The notes beneath the pieces are model-generated. The model searched no databases. It saw only the letters and a program-made list of their open reading frames with translations, and was not told where the DNA came from. From Luteolibacter sp. SL250 (GTDB lineage Bacteria > Verrucomicrobiota > Verrucomicrobiia > Verrucomicrobiales > Akkermansiaceae): DNA of 64,000 nt. Positions 5,115 to 54,033 of the stretch are shown here, piece after piece. Location: NCBI RefSeq assembly GCF_026625605.1, contig NZ_CP113054.1, forward strand, positions 3,658,001-3,722,000, read 5' to 3'. Positions within the stretch are counted from its first letter, which is position 1. Each line of letters starts with the position of its first letter. A program made the translations under genes and the position numbers.

Positions 5115-5219
5115 GTAGCGGATCTCGTGAGAGATCCGGCGGGGTGCATGTCACCCAGGAAACAAGCTCCGGCTTCCCATGGACTTCCCCACCACCGGAA
5201 GTCTCACGACTTCCGCTAC
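5115..5219. repeat. Paired GTAG-type REP element (family A, copy 1)
   Basis: Two inverted hairpins. The first reads GTAG followed by CGGATCTC-GTGA-GAGATCCG (5115-5138). The second, on the opposite strand at 5195-5219, is GTAG-CGGAAGTC-GTGA-GACTTCCG. The leading GTAG and the GTGA loop are constant while the stem differs, with both arms changing together. It occupies the manA-panB intergenic space. GTAG-led hairpins are the classic RAYT substrate form. Confidence 0.8.
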
Positions 5220-11702: not shown

Positions 11703-11941
11703 AGTAAGGAGGAGGGACACTCCTGTCCCTCGGCGGCATTGGCGAAATAAGAAGGAGAAGTTTTCAGTGTTCAGTTTTCAGGAGGAGAAAAAGATGGAGG
11801 TTCACGAATCGAACGAATCGAAAGAAATTTGAAGATCCTGCTTTCTTCTTTTCTCATCCTTCGCGGCCTTTGCGTCTTTGCGGTGAATTTTTGATGATTC
11901 GCCATTGCAGCCGGAGGACAGGAGTGTCCTCCCTCCTTACT
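11703..11941. repeat. Paired REP element, family C copy 1
   Basis: The left REP (11703-11744) has the hairpin AGGGACA-CTCC-TGTCCCT. The inverted right REP (11901-11941) has GGAGGACA-GGAG-TGTCCTCC and ends CTCCTTACT. The left stem differs from the family norm by changes in both arms. The core holds a 24-bp segment also found at 61002-61025 and the motif CTTTGCGTCTTTGCGGTGAA (11868-11887). It fills the 300 bp between queD and the caspase-fold gene, whose TAA stop lies in the right REP. Confidence 0.88.
11759..11782. repeat. 24-bp direct repeat (TTTTCAGTGTTCAGTTTTCA core)
   Basis: These 24 bases are identical to 61002-61025 in the cysJ-cysI spacer. Internally it is a tandem TTTTCAG/GTTCAG pattern. 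Here it sits inside a family C element. Confidence 0.7.
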
Positions 11942-26523: not shown

Positions 26524-26594
26524 CCTGGGACCGCGGACTTCAGTCCGCTTGGCTTCGCTGGCCGGATTCTCCAGGGCGGACTGAAGTCCGCGCT
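26524..26594. repeat. Long palindrome, family B copy 2
   Basis: Same architecture as 7277-7353, but both hairpins carry GCGGAC-N4-GTCCGC instead of GCGGAA-N4-TTCCGC, so pairing is kept by double changes. The outer right arm has diverged (GCTCCGTGC replaces GGTCCCAGT). It ends 5 bp before the SUKH stop codon. Confidence 0.8.
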
Positions 26595-37290: not shown

Positions 37291-37490
37291 AGTAAGGAGG
37301 GAGGACACTCCTGTCCTCCGGCGGCATTGGCGGGATAAGGAGGAGAAGTTTTCAGGCAAAAAAAGCCTGACCACGAATCTCAAAGAGATCCGTTCTTTCC
37401 TTTGCGCCTTTGCGGTAAATCTCATCCCGGATCGCCTTTGCTCTGCGTTCCGGTTGCAGCCGGAGGACAGGAGTGTCCTCCCTCCTTACT
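37291..37490. repeat. Paired REP element, family C copy 2
   Basis: Left REP 37291-37332 has GGAGGACA-CTCC-TGTCCTCC. The inverted right REP 37451-37490 has the complement and ends CCTCCTTACT. The core carries CCTTTGCGCCTTTGCGGTAA at 37399-37418. It occupies nearly all of the ychF-tetR gap (convergent genes). Confidence 0.9.
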
Positions 37491-40399: not shown

Positions 40400-41791
40400 A
40401 TGTTCCAGTCCCTCGCCGACAATCTCGACAAGACCTTCCGCAACCTCCGTGGCGTCGGCCGCATCTCGGAGAAAAACATCACGGACGCCCTGCGCGAGGT
40501 CCGCATCGCTCTGCTGGAGGCGGACGTCGAGTTCGGCGTGGCGAAGGATTTCATCGCAAAGGTGAAGGAGAAATCCATCGGCGAGGACGTCCTGAAGTCG
40601 ATCAAACCCGGTGAGCAGATCATCAAGTTCTTCAACGACGAGCTGACCGAACTGCTGGGCGGCGACCAGGCCCCGCTGGACCTCAACCCGCCCGCGCGCA
40701 TCCTCATCTGCGGCCTCAACGGCGCGGGCAAGACGACCACCTCCGCGAAGCTGGCGCTGCGTCTGAAAAAGGAAGGCCGCCGCCCGCTGCTCATCGCGTG
40801 CGACCTCTACCGTCCCGCCGCCATCGACCAGCTCGCCACGCTGGCAAAGCAGATCGACGTGCCCATCTACACCCCGGAAGCGACCGAGACGGACGTGGTG
40901 AAGGTGGCGAAGGACGCCCTGGCCTGGGCGGAGAAGCAGAACGGAACGGTCCTCATCTTCGACACCGCGGGCCGCCAGGAGATCGATCAGCGGCTGGTGG
41001 AGGAACTGAAGCGCCTGCACGCCTTCCTCAACCCGAAGGAAACGCTCCTCGTCGCGGACGCGGCCACCGGCCAGCAGGCCGTCTCCGTGGCCACCCATTT
41101 CGACGAAGCCGTCGGCATCACCGGCATCATCCTCACCAAGCTGGACGGCGACTCCCGTGGTGGCGCCGCGCTCTCCATGCGCGCCGTCACCGGCAAGCCA
41201 ATCAAGTTCGCCGGTGAGGGCGAGAAGCTGGACCAGCTTTTCGAGTTCCACCCGACCCGGATGGCGGACCGCATCCTGGGCAAGGGCGACATCGTCGGCA
41301 TGGTGGAGCAGGTCGCGGACAAGGTGAACGAGGCCGACGCCATGCGCTCCATGCAGCGGATGCAGGAAGGGAAGTTCGACTTCACCGACTTCCTCGACCA
41401 GATGAAGATGATCCGCAACCTGGGTCCTCTGGAGGGCCTGCTGGGCCTCATGCCCGGCTTCAACAAGATCAAGAAGCAGCTCCCCGCGGACGCCTTCAAC
41501 AACAAAAAGATGAACCGCACGGAGGCCATCGTGCTTTCCATGACCCCGGAGGAACGCCGCAAGCCGGAGATCATCAAAGGCTCCCGCCGCCAGCGGATCG
41601 CCGCCGGTTCCGGCACCTCCCTCGCCGAGGTGAACCAGCTCATCAAGCAGTTCGGCGAGATGCGCAAGATGATGAAGTCCCCGTCGAAGATGAAGGGCCT
41701 CATGCGCCAGATGGGCGGCTCCGGCGGCCTGGGAGACATGATGAAGAACATGGGCGGCGGCAAGTTCCCGGGCGGGAAGTTTCCGTTTTAA
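40400..41791 (+). CDS. ffh: Signal recognition particle protein Ffh
   Basis: A 463-residue SRP54 GTPase. The N domain runs MFQSLADNLDKTFRNLRGVG. The G domain has GLNGAGKTTTSAKLALRL (about 107-124), DTAGRQEIDQRL, and TKLDGDSRGGAALSM. The M domain at the end (about 300-440) has KGSRRQRIAAGSG and a methionine-rich tail (MRQMGGSGGLGDMMKNMGGG). It binds signal sequences and 4.5S RNA to deliver ribosomes to the membrane. No SRP RNA gene was seen nearby. Its TAA stop (41789-41791) lies at the edge of a REP. Confidence 0.95.
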   Translation: MFQSLADNLDKTFRNLRGVGRISEKNITDALREVRIALLEADVEFGVAKDFIAKVKEKSIGEDVLKSIKPGEQIIKFFNDELTELLGGDQAPLDLNPPARILICGLNGAGKTTTSAKLALRLKKEGRRPLLIACDLYRPAAIDQLATLAKQIDVPIYTPEATETDVVKVAKDALAWAEKQNGTVLIFDTAGRQEIDQRLVEELKRLHAFLNPKETLLVADAATGQQAVSVATHFDEAVGITGIILTKLDGDSRGGAALSMRAVTGKPIKFAGEGEKLDQLFEFHPTRMADRILGKGDIVGMVEQVADKVNEADAMRSMQRMQEGKFDFTDFLDQMKMIRNLGPLEGLLGLMPGFNKIKKQLPADAFNNKKMNRTEAIVLSMTPEERRKPEIIKGSRRQRIAAGSGTSLAEVNQLIKQFGEMRKMMKSPSKMKGLMRQMGGSGGLGDMMKNMGGGKFPGGKFPF

Positions 41792-41978
41792 GGAGGGAGG
41801 ACATTGCGGCTTCGCCGCTATGTCCGCTTCGCTCCCATTCCTGTCCTCCGGCGGCATTGGCGAACAACGAAAATCTAACACTACGGCGCAGCGCGGCACT
41901 AAATATGGAGCTCTTTTTGGATCACCATAGATAGCTTCCCATTGCAGCCGGAGGACAGGAGTGTCCTCCCTCCTTACT
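41789..41978. repeat. Paired REP element, family C copy 3, with insertion in the left hairpin
   Basis: The left REP starts at the ffh stop (TAAGGAGGGAGGACA). Its loop is expanded by about 38 bp (about 41804-41841), containing GCGGCTTCGCCGC and CGCTTCGCTCCCATTC, before TGTCCTCC resumes. The right REP (41941-41978) is normal. It ends 2 bp before the RAYT start codon. Confidence 0.88.
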
Positions 41979-41980
41979 CC

Positions 41981-42583
41981 ATGTCCGAATATCTGCATCC
42001 AGACAAAGACATCCGGAAGCACGGGGTGAAGCTCCCGCATTGGCAGCAGGAGGAGGCGATGCAGTTCGTGACGTTCCGCCTGGCGGACTCGATCCCGCAG
42101 ACCAAGGCGCGGAAATGGAAGGAGGAGCGGGCCACCTGGCTTTCCCTTCACCCGAAGCCCTGGACTCCCGCGAAGGAAAAGGAATACCACCAGCGCTTCA
42201 CGAAGGATTTCGAGAACTGGCTGGATGAGGGGGCGGGAGCCTGCCTTTTCAACCATCCGGCGAATCGTCTCCATCTGGAGGAAACGCTGATGCACGATGA
42301 GGGGAAGTCCGCGCACCACCACTCATGGGTCATCATGCCGAACCACGTTCACCTGCTCTTCACCCCGGTGGCCCCCATCGATCAGTTGATGAAGAGTTGG
42401 AAAGGCATTTCCTCGCGGAAGATCGGGATCGGCTCCATCTGGCAGAGCGGCTACCGGGACACGATGATCCGCGACGTGGATCACTTTTTGAATGCGGTGC
42501 GGTATATCAGGAGGAATCCTTTGAAGCTGCGGGAAGGAACCTTTACCCTTTGGCAGAGTGAGCGAGCGCTCCGCGTCCAGTAA
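41981..42583 (+). CDS. REP-associated tyrosine transposase (RAYT, Y1/HUH family)
   Basis: A 200-residue HUH endonuclease of the IS200-like Y1 family. The metal-binding motif is in HSWVIMPNHVHLLF (His122 and His124). A C-terminal helix holds GYRDTMIRD and VRYIRRNPLK, with Tyr175 (or Tyr158) the probable catalytic residue. RAYTs nick single-stranded REP hairpins and are thought to spread them. This gene is bracketed exactly by two inverted REP pairs: the upstream one ends 2 bp before the ATG, and its own TAA stop is in the downstream one. It lacks long terminal inverted repeats or an accessory gene of an ordinary insertion sequence. Confidence 0.88.
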   Translation: MSEYLHPDKDIRKHGVKLPHWQQEEAMQFVTFRLADSIPQTKARKWKEERATWLSLHPKPWTPAKEKEYHQRFTKDFENWLDEGAGACLFNHPANRLHLEETLMHDEGKSAHHHSWVIMPNHVHLLFTPVAPIDQLMKSWKGISSRKIGIGSIWQSGYRDTMIRDVDHFLNAVRYIRRNPLKLREGTFTLWQSERALRVQ

Positions 42584-42675
42584 GGAGGTAGGACACTCCT
42601 GTCCTACACACATCATGAAGGTCTTCCTTGATTCGCCAATGCCGCCGGAGGACAAGAGTGTCCTCCCTCCTTACT
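42579..42675. repeat. Paired REP element, family C copy 4
   Basis: The left REP (42579-42607) has GTAGGACA-CTCC-TGTCCTAC, with a paired change in both stem arms relative to the family. The right REP (42635-42675) has GGAGGACA-AGAG-TGTCCTCC. With 97 bp it is the most compact copy. It contains the RAYT stop and the miaA start region. Confidence 0.9.
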
Positions 42676-43523
42676 TCGTCTGCGGACCAACCGCTTCCGG
42701 TAAAACCGCCTACGCCATCGACTACGCCCTCCGTAACAACGGGGAGATCGTCAACGGGGATGCCTTCCAGCTCTACCGGGGGCTGGAGATCCTCAGCGCC
42801 GCGCCGTCCGCGGAGGAACAGGCACAGGTCCCCCACCACCTCTACGGTGTGCTTTCCCCCACCCAGCGGAACGACGCGCAGGCCTATGTGGATCTCGCCC
42901 TGCCGGTCATCCGGGAGATCCAGTCACGGGGGAAAACGCCCGTCATCACCGGTGGGTCCGGACTCTACCTGAAGTTCCTCACCCATGGCGCATCCCCTCT
43001 CCCGACGGGTGACGCGGCGCTCCGCGCGGAGCTGGATGCACGGCCGCTGGACGACCTGGTGGCGCAGCTCCAGGAACTGGACCCGCTGGAGGCCAGCCGC
43101 ACCGCGCTGAAGAACCGCCGCTATGTTTCCCGCGCGCTGGAGATCTGCCTGTTGACCGGGGAAAAGACGTCCACCCTGCGCGACAACTGGCAGTCCGCCA
43201 CCGCGGACCGGGAGGCACAGCTCCGCGGCTGCTTCATCCAGCGGACGCGCCCGGATCTGCAGGCCCGCATCGCCCTGCGCAGCCGCCTGATGCTGGATGG
43301 CGGCGCCATTGATGAGGTCGCCGCGCTGCCGGACGATTCACCGACTTGCGGCAAGGCCATCGGCGTGAAGGAAATCCGCGCCCTGCTTGCCGGGGAGATC
43401 GACCGGGCCACCTGCGGGGAGCTGCTGGCCATTTCCACACGCCAGTACGCGAAGCGGCAGGAGACGTGGTTCAAGCGGGAGAAGTGGCTGGAAATCGTCC
43501 GGCCGCAGACCGGTTTTCTTTGA
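42639..43523 (+). CDS. miaA: tRNA dimethylallyltransferase with a REP-encoded N-terminus
   Basis: A 294-residue enzyme that adds a dimethylallyl group to A37 of tRNAs reading U-starting codons. The P-loop is CGPTASGKTAYAIDYAL (about residues 15-31), with DAFQLYRGLEI (about 42) and VITGGSGLYLKFL (about 109) also conserved. The first 12 residues, MPPEDKSVLPPY, are the translation of the right-hand REP of copy 4; ATG 42639 lies inside it. Another ATG at 42615 would add 8 residues, also within that element. Homologues normally begin a few residues before the P-loop, so catalysis should be intact. No independent promoter is apparent. Confidence 0.9.
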   Translation: MPPEDKSVLPPYFVCGPTASGKTAYAIDYALRNNGEIVNGDAFQLYRGLEILSAAPSAEEQAQVPHHLYGVLSPTQRNDAQAYVDLALPVIREIQSRGKTPVITGGSGLYLKFLTHGASPLPTGDAALRAELDARPLDDLVAQLQELDPLEASRTALKNRRYVSRALEICLLTGEKTSTLRDNWQSATADREAQLRGCFIQRTRPDLQARIALRSRLMLDGGAIDEVAALPDDSPTCGKAIGVKEIRALLAGEIDRATCGELLAISTRQYAKRQETWFKREKWLEIVRPQTGFL

Positions 43524-45894: not shown

Positions 45895-46045
45895 AGTAAG
45901 GAGGGAGGACACTCCTGTCCTCCGGCTGCAACAGGAACCCATAGCAAAGGTATCGTCAGGAGATCCGTGGCTTTCTCTTCTTAGCGGTGAATTTTCGATG
46001 ATTCGCCAATGCCGTTGGAGGACAGGAGTGTCCTCCCTCCTTACT
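45895..46045. repeat. Paired REP element, family C copy 5
   Basis: Left REP 45895-45931 and inverted right REP 46004-46045, with a core containing TTAGCGGTGAATTTT. It lies between two convergent genes. The TAA stop of the lipoprotein gene is in the right REP. Confidence 0.88.
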
Positions 46046-50978: not shown

Positions 50979-51628
50979 GGGGTGTCCTCTTTCTTCTCAG
51001 GCGTCGCCTGCGGGAATAAGGAGGGAGGACACTCTTGTCCTCCGGCGACATTGGCGATGGACGGGGAAACGTGACTTTGTCCGGAGGTACCTTTGCTCTG
51101 GGTTCCCGTTGCAGACGGAGGACAAGAGTGTCCTCCCTCCTTACTGATAAACCTCTCCGCCGTCGCATAGAGCGCCTCCATCCTTGGCTGCTCCGTATTC
51201 GCCAACGCGAACTTCACCTTGTCACACTGGAAAAGGAAATCCCCCAGCGCATTCTGCCAGTCCACGGACAGGCGGTCGCTGCGTTCCGCCTCAAAGAGGA
51301 ACTCCTCGGTGGAAAGGTGCGGCGCGCGGAGGGCGAAGCGATCCTCGATATACACGCGCAGCACCCGGGAGACCTCGACCACGAATTCCTTGTAGCGCCC
51401 CTCGTCCAGCAGTTTGCGGCTGGCTTCCAGGCCCTCGCGGGCGGCCACCTCCGGCGGCACGGCGGGTTCCTGGAACGGCAGCCGCCGCTTCCGGTAAAGC
51501 CGCCACACGATCAGGCCGATGACGAGCAGCACCGCCAGCGCGATGACCGCGGGCCACAGCCACGCCAACGGTTCCGGCGGGGCGACCAGCGTGAAATCAT
51601 CCGTGATGTCAGGGGGCGTTTCCTTCAT
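50975..51628 (-). CDS. DUF4381 membrane protein with a REP-encoded C-terminal tail
   Basis: A 217-residue protein: one helix (about 24-42, WPAVIALAVLLVIGLIVWRL), then an alpha-helical DUF4381 domain (ASRKLLDEGRYKEFVVEVSR, about 69-88) to about residue 160. Residues 162-205 (beginning SKEGGHSCPP and ending GGQECPPSLF) are translated from the REP pair at 51016-51145, after which the frame resumes with QATPEKKEDTP and overlaps the batA start by 4 bp. Family members are usually about 160-170 residues. It sits between DUF58 and BatA, as is normal for this cluster. Confidence 0.82.
   Translation of the reverse strand: MKETPPDITDDFTLVAPPEPLAWLWPAVIALAVLLVIGLIVWRLYRKRRLPFQEPAVPPEVAAREGLEASRKLLDEGRYKEFVVEVSRVLRVYIEDRFALRAPHLSTEEFLFEAERSDRLSVDWQNALGDFLFQCDKVKFALANTEQPRMEALYATAERFISKEGGHSCPPSATGTQSKGTSGQSHVSPSIANVAGGQECPPSLFPQATPEKKEDTP
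51016..51145. repeat. Paired REP element, family C copy 6, inside a coding region
   Basis: Left REP 51016-51056 (GGAGGACA-CTCT-TGTCCTCC) and inverted right REP 51108-51145 (GGAGGACA-AGAG-TGTCCTCC). Both loops carry the CTCT/AGAG variant. It lies wholly within the DUF4381 frame and is read on the minus strand without a stop. Confidence 0.9.
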
Positions 51629-53868: not shown

Positions 53869-54033
53869 TAAGGAGGGAGGACACTCTTGTCCTCCGGCGG
53901 CATTGGTGAACTATCAGAAGATTCACCGCGAAGACGCAAAGGAGCGAAGAAATCGCGGCTTTCGCGACTTTTCGGTAGATCCTTCGTGTATCGCCATTGC
54001 AGCCGGAGGACAGGAGTGTCCTCCCTCCTTACT
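53869..54033. repeat. Paired REP element, family C copy 7
   Basis: Left REP 53869-53909 (GGAGGACA-CTCT-TGTCCTCC), right REP 53992-54033 (GGAGGACA-GGAG-TGTCCTCC). The core carries TTCACCGCGAAGACGCAAAG (53923-53942), the reverse complement of the core motif in copies 1 and 2. It lies between mdh and the MoxR gene. Confidence 0.9.

Follow-up and report, generated by a model that had tools for sequence, protein, structure and literature searches.

The window analysed here is a 64-kb stretch of the genome of Luteolibacter sp. SL250 (hereafter G000: 4.9 Mb, one contig). It contains a gene for a Y1/HUH transposase of the RAYT type between ffh and miaA, with an inverted pair of REP hairpins on either side. 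The features of this locus and five more inverted pairs in the window are listed below; for three of the pairs the state of the site in G141, a genome of close kin, is added.

40400..41791, plus strand: ffh; its stop TAA (41789-41791) opens the left REP foot
41789..41976, unstranded: left inverted REP pair; foot TAAGGAG 41789-41795, long hairpin 41796-41849; hairpin 41950-41969, minus-strand foot 41976-41970
41981..42583, plus strand: RAYT gene (Y1/HUH transposase, 200 aa; HUH H122/H124, catalytic Y175), from ORF list, profiles, alignment and fold
42581..42607, plus strand: right inverted REP pair (whole pair 42581..42673), left half; foot 42581-42587 (its TAA is the RAYT stop), hairpin 42588-42607, stem GTAGGACA
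42647..42673, minus strand: right inverted REP pair, right half; hairpin 42647-42666, foot 42673-42667
42558..43523, plus strand: open frame of miaA with a listed GTG start and ATGs at 42615 and 42639; spans the right REP pair
11705..11939, unstranded: inverted REP pair of the RAYT-flanking family, left stem GAGGGACA, from sequence
37293..37488, unstranded: inverted REP pair of the RAYT-flanking family, from sequence
45897..46043, unstranded: inverted REP pair of the RAYT-flanking family; in G141 same site, different form
51017..51143, unstranded: inverted REP pair; G141 has at this site an element with similar interior and a long-form left hairpin
53869..54031, unstranded: inverted REP pair; in G141 same site, different form

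The initial annotation had placed a Y1/HUH gene at 41981-42583, and an open frame with an ATG at 41981 and a TAA at 42581-42583 is present there. That its product is a RAYT-type Y1 transposase is borne out by profile, sequence match, residue alignment and fold. Pfam Y1_Tnp scores barely above its cut-off (24 bits against 23), while the NCBIfam equivalog REP_Tyr_transpos (NF047646) gives 56.7 bits against a cut-off of 80; a PHROGs scan returned a single family, of unknown function. Among solved structures the best sequence match is 4er8, which shows a RAYT in complex with a REP hairpin (E 2e-5), and 4er8 is also the top fold match (E 3.4e-6, 14% identity, TM 0.48/0.58) of a model built from a 34-sequence alignment (pLDDT 91.7, pTM 0.83). 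Residues H122, H124, Y175 and N179 are unchanged in all 22 aligned sequences, and the motif YIRRNP fits the class-2 signature Y---NP as given in the accessible text of PMC6006769. Named relatives at 53-69% identity are nearly all labelled Verrucomicrobia (Akkermansiaceae, Luteolibacter, Haloferula, Rubritalea and others). IS200/IS605 elements (IS608, ISDra2) resemble the system in their Y1 fold, subterminal hairpins and guide tetranucleotide 5' of the hairpin (PMC8266576, accessible part). The several near-identical transposase copies expected of that type were not found in G000, however: the genome has one full-length copy of this RAYT, two genes at 37-38% identity and one fragment at 47%.

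The claim that the gene is bracketed by inverted REP pairs holds: the left pair has its feet at 41789 (plus) and 41976 (minus), the right pair at 42581 (plus) and 42673 (minus), and the gene's TAA opens the foot of the right pair, so that the stop does lie inside it. The start was said to follow the left pair by 2 bp, which is correct if the usual CT is counted in with the pair; the ATG itself lies 4 nt past CTCCTTA. The five further pairs (whose outer feet are the end positions listed above) were recovered within 0-2 bp of the positions first reported. One and the same hairpin had been claimed for all of them, and 11 of the 14 ends are indeed plain; the end at 41789 is a long form with a 38-nt loop, and those at 11705 and 42581 have other stems (GAGGGACA and GTAGGACA), both compensated. 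GGAGGACA occurs 35 times in the window, against a mean of 3.44 and a largest value of 7 in 100 shuffles. The interiors of the inverted pairs span about 40-180 nt and differ from pair to pair; those of 11705-11939, 37293-37488 and 53869-54031 include other repeat-like stretches (for example ACCGCAAAGACGCAAAGG and GTTTTCAGTGTTCAG), variously combined.

On the far side of the gene, the miaA frame stays open through the right REP pair, which means that REP sequence would encode the MiaA N-terminus, if translated. The stretch of the frame running through the pair lies at 42615-42680. Of 41 genomes of the genus, 36 yielded miaA, and 30 loci were compared: a RAYT lies between ffh and miaA in six of them (and in G141), ffh is present without a RAYT in ten, and neither was seen in 14. 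At all six RAYT-bearing loci (L213, L214, L216-L218 and L220) no stop interrupts the miaA frame across the REP pair, as in ...DDKSVVTPYYICGPTASGK. In G157 the REPs persist at ffh-miaA without the RAYT, and ffh, minus its last two codons, takes its stop from the REP TAA.

The leader of the hairpin had been given as TAAGGAGG, conserved and distinct from GTAG. The last G of this string is part of the stem, and what is constant is GGAG at the 5' foot; the TAA in front of it is common, not invariant. The leader is better described as a GGAG foot, often with a preceding stop triplet. At the RAYT of the window the foot is GGAG, not the GT(A/G)G of RAYT/REPtron systems. This foot was surveyed in 61 distinct RAYT genes (44 clusters at 85% identity, one gene per cluster) using stems of at least 7 bp, loops of 3-4 nt and orientation by the pyrimidine loop; four of the 44 clusters gave no hairpin at these settings. 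GGAG was the 5' foot in 131 of 159 oriented hairpins and in 36 of the 44 clusters, compared with 20 of 159 for the commonest tetranucleotide at the other foot, the control. GTAG stood at the 5' foot in seven hairpins and GTGG in three. Four of the eight clusters without GGAG have the feet GAAG, GGGG or AAGGG (L023, L033, L038, L085), and the clusters that gave no hairpin have GGAG feet on stems with 6-nt loops (L074, L078, L081) or TAAGGAG right at the RAYT stop (L026). The three positions before GGAG are T, A and A in 87, 91 and 85 of the 131 hairpins, and a RAYT stop directly precedes GGAG in 31 of the 61 genes (TAA 20, TAG 6, TGA 5). A reading of TAAGGAGG as a Shine-Dalgarno-like sequence, judged against the 16S tail, was dropped because relatives have other triplets before GGAG.

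The foot recurs at distant RAYT relatives: 28 of 38 loci, read by eye in a display that favoured G(T/G)(A/G)G feet, have GGAG on at least one side, and the remainder have GGAA, GGGG or other feet. These loci span Bacteroidales, Planctomycetia, Acidobacteria, Kiritimatiellae, a gammaproteobacterium and others. A literature search found no GGAG foot in print, although "atypical" structures and TIRs drawn in figures may include it; the string "ggag" has 0 occurrences in the accessible running text, as distinct from the figures, of PMC3733652, PMC6006769, PMC8266576, PMC2817692 and PMC12306157. A3G4 of the foot has been proposed to select CT cleavage sites (PMC8266576, accessible part), and as GGAG keeps A3G4, CT cleavage sites would by analogy be predicted for GGAG hairpins too. 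Two ideas about how the foot is read were considered. A one-residue code (E. coli position 101: His with GTAG, Thr or Arg with GGAG) fits G000 and remains only a candidate, because the accessible text of PMC6006769 gives Arg there in GTAG-associated subclasses too; as for pairing of loop TCC with foot GGA, GGAG-footed hairpins with other loops (e.g. L048) argue against it as a strict rule.

While foot and top are kept, the stems vary in a compensated way. When hairpins of G000 were picked by their 5' half and loop only, 21 distinct ones were obtained, in which 149 of 168 cells are paired (mean 121, maximum 132 in 500 shuffles) and 26 are double, compensated changes (mean 7, maximum 14 in 500 shuffles). 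Divergent RAYT relatives likewise keep foot and hairpin top and differ in compensated stem pairs; the clade hairpin set was preselected as perfect hairpins, which makes its percentage of pairing uninformative. Within G000, 39 ends have the stem GGTGGACA and share foot and top with the GGAGGACA family. The ends of G000 came from 178 raw matches, of which 27 were filtered to leave 151 (about 22 of them inner hairpins of long forms); since exact-hairpin and foot-plus-stem patterns were used to choose the loci, they bias the counts of leaders and stems. Long forms number 31 in the genome and "double-foot" palindromes four; double-foot REPs are described for subclass 2.4 in the accessible text of PMC6006769. 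The long form (at 41796-41849 and elsewhere) has about 34 extra loop nt, TTGCGGC...GCCGC...CCATTCC.

The proposed count of the hairpin across the genome and its relatives was carried out in 145 family genomes. The exact hairpin occurs 61 times in G000, 64 in G141, once each in G064 and G093 and in none of the rest, and the TAAGGAGGNNGGACA pattern (foot plus stem), with at most one mismatch, has 190 matches in G000 against 16 for its reversed form. The RAYT of G141 is 92% identical to that of G000, all others being at most 66% identical among the matches listed. Equal abundance in genomes lacking such a RAYT was therefore not seen among these genomes, as the initial annotation had expected; the two rich genomes are closely related (88-93% identity over three aligned stretches of 1.1-8.5 kb, 81% over one of 1.8 kb), so the co-occurrence is support, not proof, and descent alone also fits. 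A broader class pattern, GGAG followed by GACA-NTCC-TGTC, was present in 18 of 23 genomes with a RAYT of the clade (mean 18.9 copies), in 20 of 46 that have distant relatives only (mean 3.5) and in 6 of 76 with no RAYT detected (mean 0.39), its reversed control having no match in the 145. Five of the 23 clade-RAYT genomes thus lack the pattern, and six of the 76 without a detected RAYT have it. Stem CARGGACA is found in five of the 145 genomes (G024 33, G127 11, G076 4, G006 2, G079 2); among these five, a clade RAYT is confined to G024 and G127. Stem TGGGGACA is also found in five, with 10 copies in total: G069 and G131 have two and three, four copies adjoin the RAYTs of these two genomes, and the stem is present too in G135 and G061, both without a clade RAYT. 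Whether a high copy number accompanies the RAYT therefore differs between genomes.

The DNA itself shows to which family the gene belongs, that hairpins bracket it and are abundant, that divergent relatives have the GGAG foot too and that stems are compensated. We consider it likely that these features reflect a REPtron-like system in which the 200-aa HUH enzyme spreads the GGAG-footed hairpins that bracket its gene. The enzyme would recognise a single-stranded hairpin whose 5' foot is GGAG and whose top is GACA-CTC(C/T)-TGTC, nick beside it via Y175, and would have spread such hairpins through the genome, mainly in inverted pairs whose interiors vary (about 40-180 nt). GGAG would serve as guide in place of GTAG, and REP ends landing at gene 3' ends could supply the stop codon. 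Both the nicking by this RAYT and the guide role of GGAG are steps that we infer from sequence.

The bracketed gene is one of six RAYT-like genes (187-256 aa) found in G000 with the NF047646 profile. Each of the other five is accompanied by its own hairpins, with different stems, which flank the gene on both sides in four cases and lie downstream only at 566068; three of the genes have GGAG feet and two GTAG feet, the latter indicating that the reading method recovers GTAG where it is present. The second RAYT (genome position 157818) has its own GGAG-footed family of 84 copies, many of which form pairs with a distance of about 50 bp. Members of such families occur in the window as well: an inverted pair with stem GCGGACT at 26533-26591 belongs to the family of this second RAYT, and GTAG-footed hairpins CGGAAGTC(GTGA)GACTTCCG at 5196 and 47099 to the family on the flanks of the RAYT at genome position 3976152. 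With six such genes, and several stems that have foot and top in common (the 39 GGTGGACA ends, for instance), one could suppose that the GGAGGACA family was spread by one of the others; that each of the five has its own differently stemmed hairpins makes this improbable. As for the claim that the bracketed RAYT is the mobilising enzyme of its hairpin family, the near confinement of the exact hairpin to G000 and G141 supports it, while the pairing of gene and family is one that we infer, given the five further RAYT-like genes and the several stems in G000.

Within the syntenic stretch of the window, all five element sites carry an element in G000 and in G141 alike. Elsewhere in G000, 40 outer flanks were sought in G141, of which 38 matched and two did not, and the sites were tallied by eye: 27 of the 38 are filled in both genomes (14 of them with changed stem or form), nine have no element there in G141, one is a deletion remnant and one is not classifiable. 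Among the nine empty sites are two decayed traces, one GTAG-type REP and one element about 630 bp further on. At site 2198223 the two genomes differ by GGAGGACA versus GGTGGACA, and at 66506 they share the stem GACGGACA in long versus short form; swaps of long and short hairpin forms at fixed sites were observed between the genomes. On this comparison, sites are largely common to the two genomes and stem or loop form is exchanged at about half, an exchange that may represent gene conversion or re-insertion. The hairpins could accordingly be immobile now, having spread long ago and been homogenised by gene conversion, with the RAYT a vertical relic or repurposed: besides the 27 shared sites, the RAYT occupies the same ffh-miaA place in several genus members and has a single full-length copy. 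We regard this as unlikely, because the nine empty sites indicate that the set of elements changes, the HUH and Y residues are kept in 22 of 22 aligned sequences, and stem changes accompany RAYT divergence.

G000 has 123 TAAGGAG ends; 88 of these have an incoming ORF (at least 150 codons) ending nearby, and at 36 of the 123 the leader TAA is the exact stop of such an ORF. By frame, stops at the leader number 36 versus 13 and 10 (P 1.7e-6, a guide only, as genes and genomes are related). AG, which was not part of the selecting patterns, precedes 99 of the 123 dispersed ends, and the RAYT of the window ends CAG-TAA-GGAG; the (AG)TAA before the foot probably derives from the end of the RAYT gene. 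At site 165742 the leader TAA stops the G000 gene after ...MGEE, whereas its G141 counterpart reads on to ...MGEEEP; a 204-codon gene comes next in G141 and has the corresponding leader TAA as its stop. Corresponding REP ends hence stop different genes in G000 and G141. G000 lacks the 204-codon gene, and one breakpoint coincides with the outer edge of the REP leader; either G000 lost this gene by deletion or G141 acquired it by insertion. At 1209816 the G000 gene is truncated at the leader, at 2814883 it is longer by three codons than that of G141, and at 1227072, 1993459 and 2457184 the genes of the two genomes end alike.

Stop supply by REPs is already known for the GTAG type: in the accessible text of PMC3733652, GTAG REPs are reported to give TAG stops and to lie within ORFs. 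REPs near stop codons in E. coli have also been reported to influence translation (PMC12306157, accessible part). Such effects, together with the 36 of 123 ends that are exact stops, would suit hairpins that are mainly RNA or terminator elements retained for what they do at gene ends, the RAYT being incidental. This is very hard to reconcile with elements that are paired in both directions and with a GGAG foot that recurs at unrelated RAYT loci in several phyla, and we give it little credence next to spread by the RAYT.

Among known systems, RAYT/REP systems (REPtrons; E. coli TnpA-REP, PDB 4er8, and Stenotrophomonas) share with this one an HUH/Y1 enzyme with Y---NP and a gene amid inverted REPs. 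To judge by the accessible text of PMC2817692 and PMC3733652, they also share abundant REPs, compensated RAYT-linked stems, several systems per genome, REP ends that supply stops and REPs inside ORFs. The foot here is GGAG, however, not GT(A/G)G; the stop triplet is a TAA (or TGA, TAG) before the foot, whereas theirs is the TAG of GTAG; and the profile score is below the NCBIfam cut-off. With REPtron anatomy but neither the GTAG foot nor a score above that cut-off, the system is placed as a variant within RAYT/REP systems. A REPIN is a repeated unit of two inverted REPs with a short spacer. The present pairs resemble REPINs in the inverted arrangement of two REPs but have variable interiors (about 40-180 nt), and the pairs of the second RAYT, about 50 bp apart, look more typical. 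TIRYT/TIRtrons and class-2.6 or class-3 Y1 proteins are RAYT relatives with non-GTAG flanking repeats; the tags stated in the accessible text of PMC3733652 and PMC6006769 are GGGGWSAS or CnGA, and some repeats shown only in figures may be GGAG-footed.

RAYT sequences were also met inside long open frames. By our own count, at least about 44 RAYT matches in family genomes, among the matches listed, lie in open frames of at least 840 aa; none of the six RAYT-like genes of G000 (187-256 aa) lies within such a frame. Of 20 candidates examined, 12 are in leucine--tRNA ligase and five in methionine synthase, and the other three are in HsdR, carbamoyl-phosphate synthase large subunit and a protein without assignment (one each):

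L287-L298: RAYTs embedded in leucine--tRNA ligase, in frame, without stops
L300, L302-L305: RAYTs embedded in methionine synthase, in frame, without stops
L286 and L299: RAYTs embedded in HsdR and carbamoyl-phosphate synthase, respectively, in frame, without stops

All 20 keep H122, H124 and Y175. Judged from the residues on either side, the insertions in LeuRS occupy one common site and those in MetH another. A literature search for RAYTs inside these enzymes found no paper. A wider proposal, which we put forward tentatively and rate well below the REPtron-like reading, is that GGAG hairpins form a separate RAYT/REP branch in several phyla, with units adapted to a place beside and within coding sequence: RAYT-derived stops, hairpin-encoded termini and linkers, and intein-like unspliced RAYTs that persist, catalytic residues intact, at fixed LeuRS and MetH sites.

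These findings indicate that not all RAYT/REP systems follow the "GTAG foot" rule. G000 offers natural matched enzyme-hairpin pairs, of both GGAG and GTAG types, for finding the residues that read the foot, and a single REP end can turn into the stop codon of different genes. RAYTs in frame inside essential enzymes would be a directly testable case of a transposase within a host protein.
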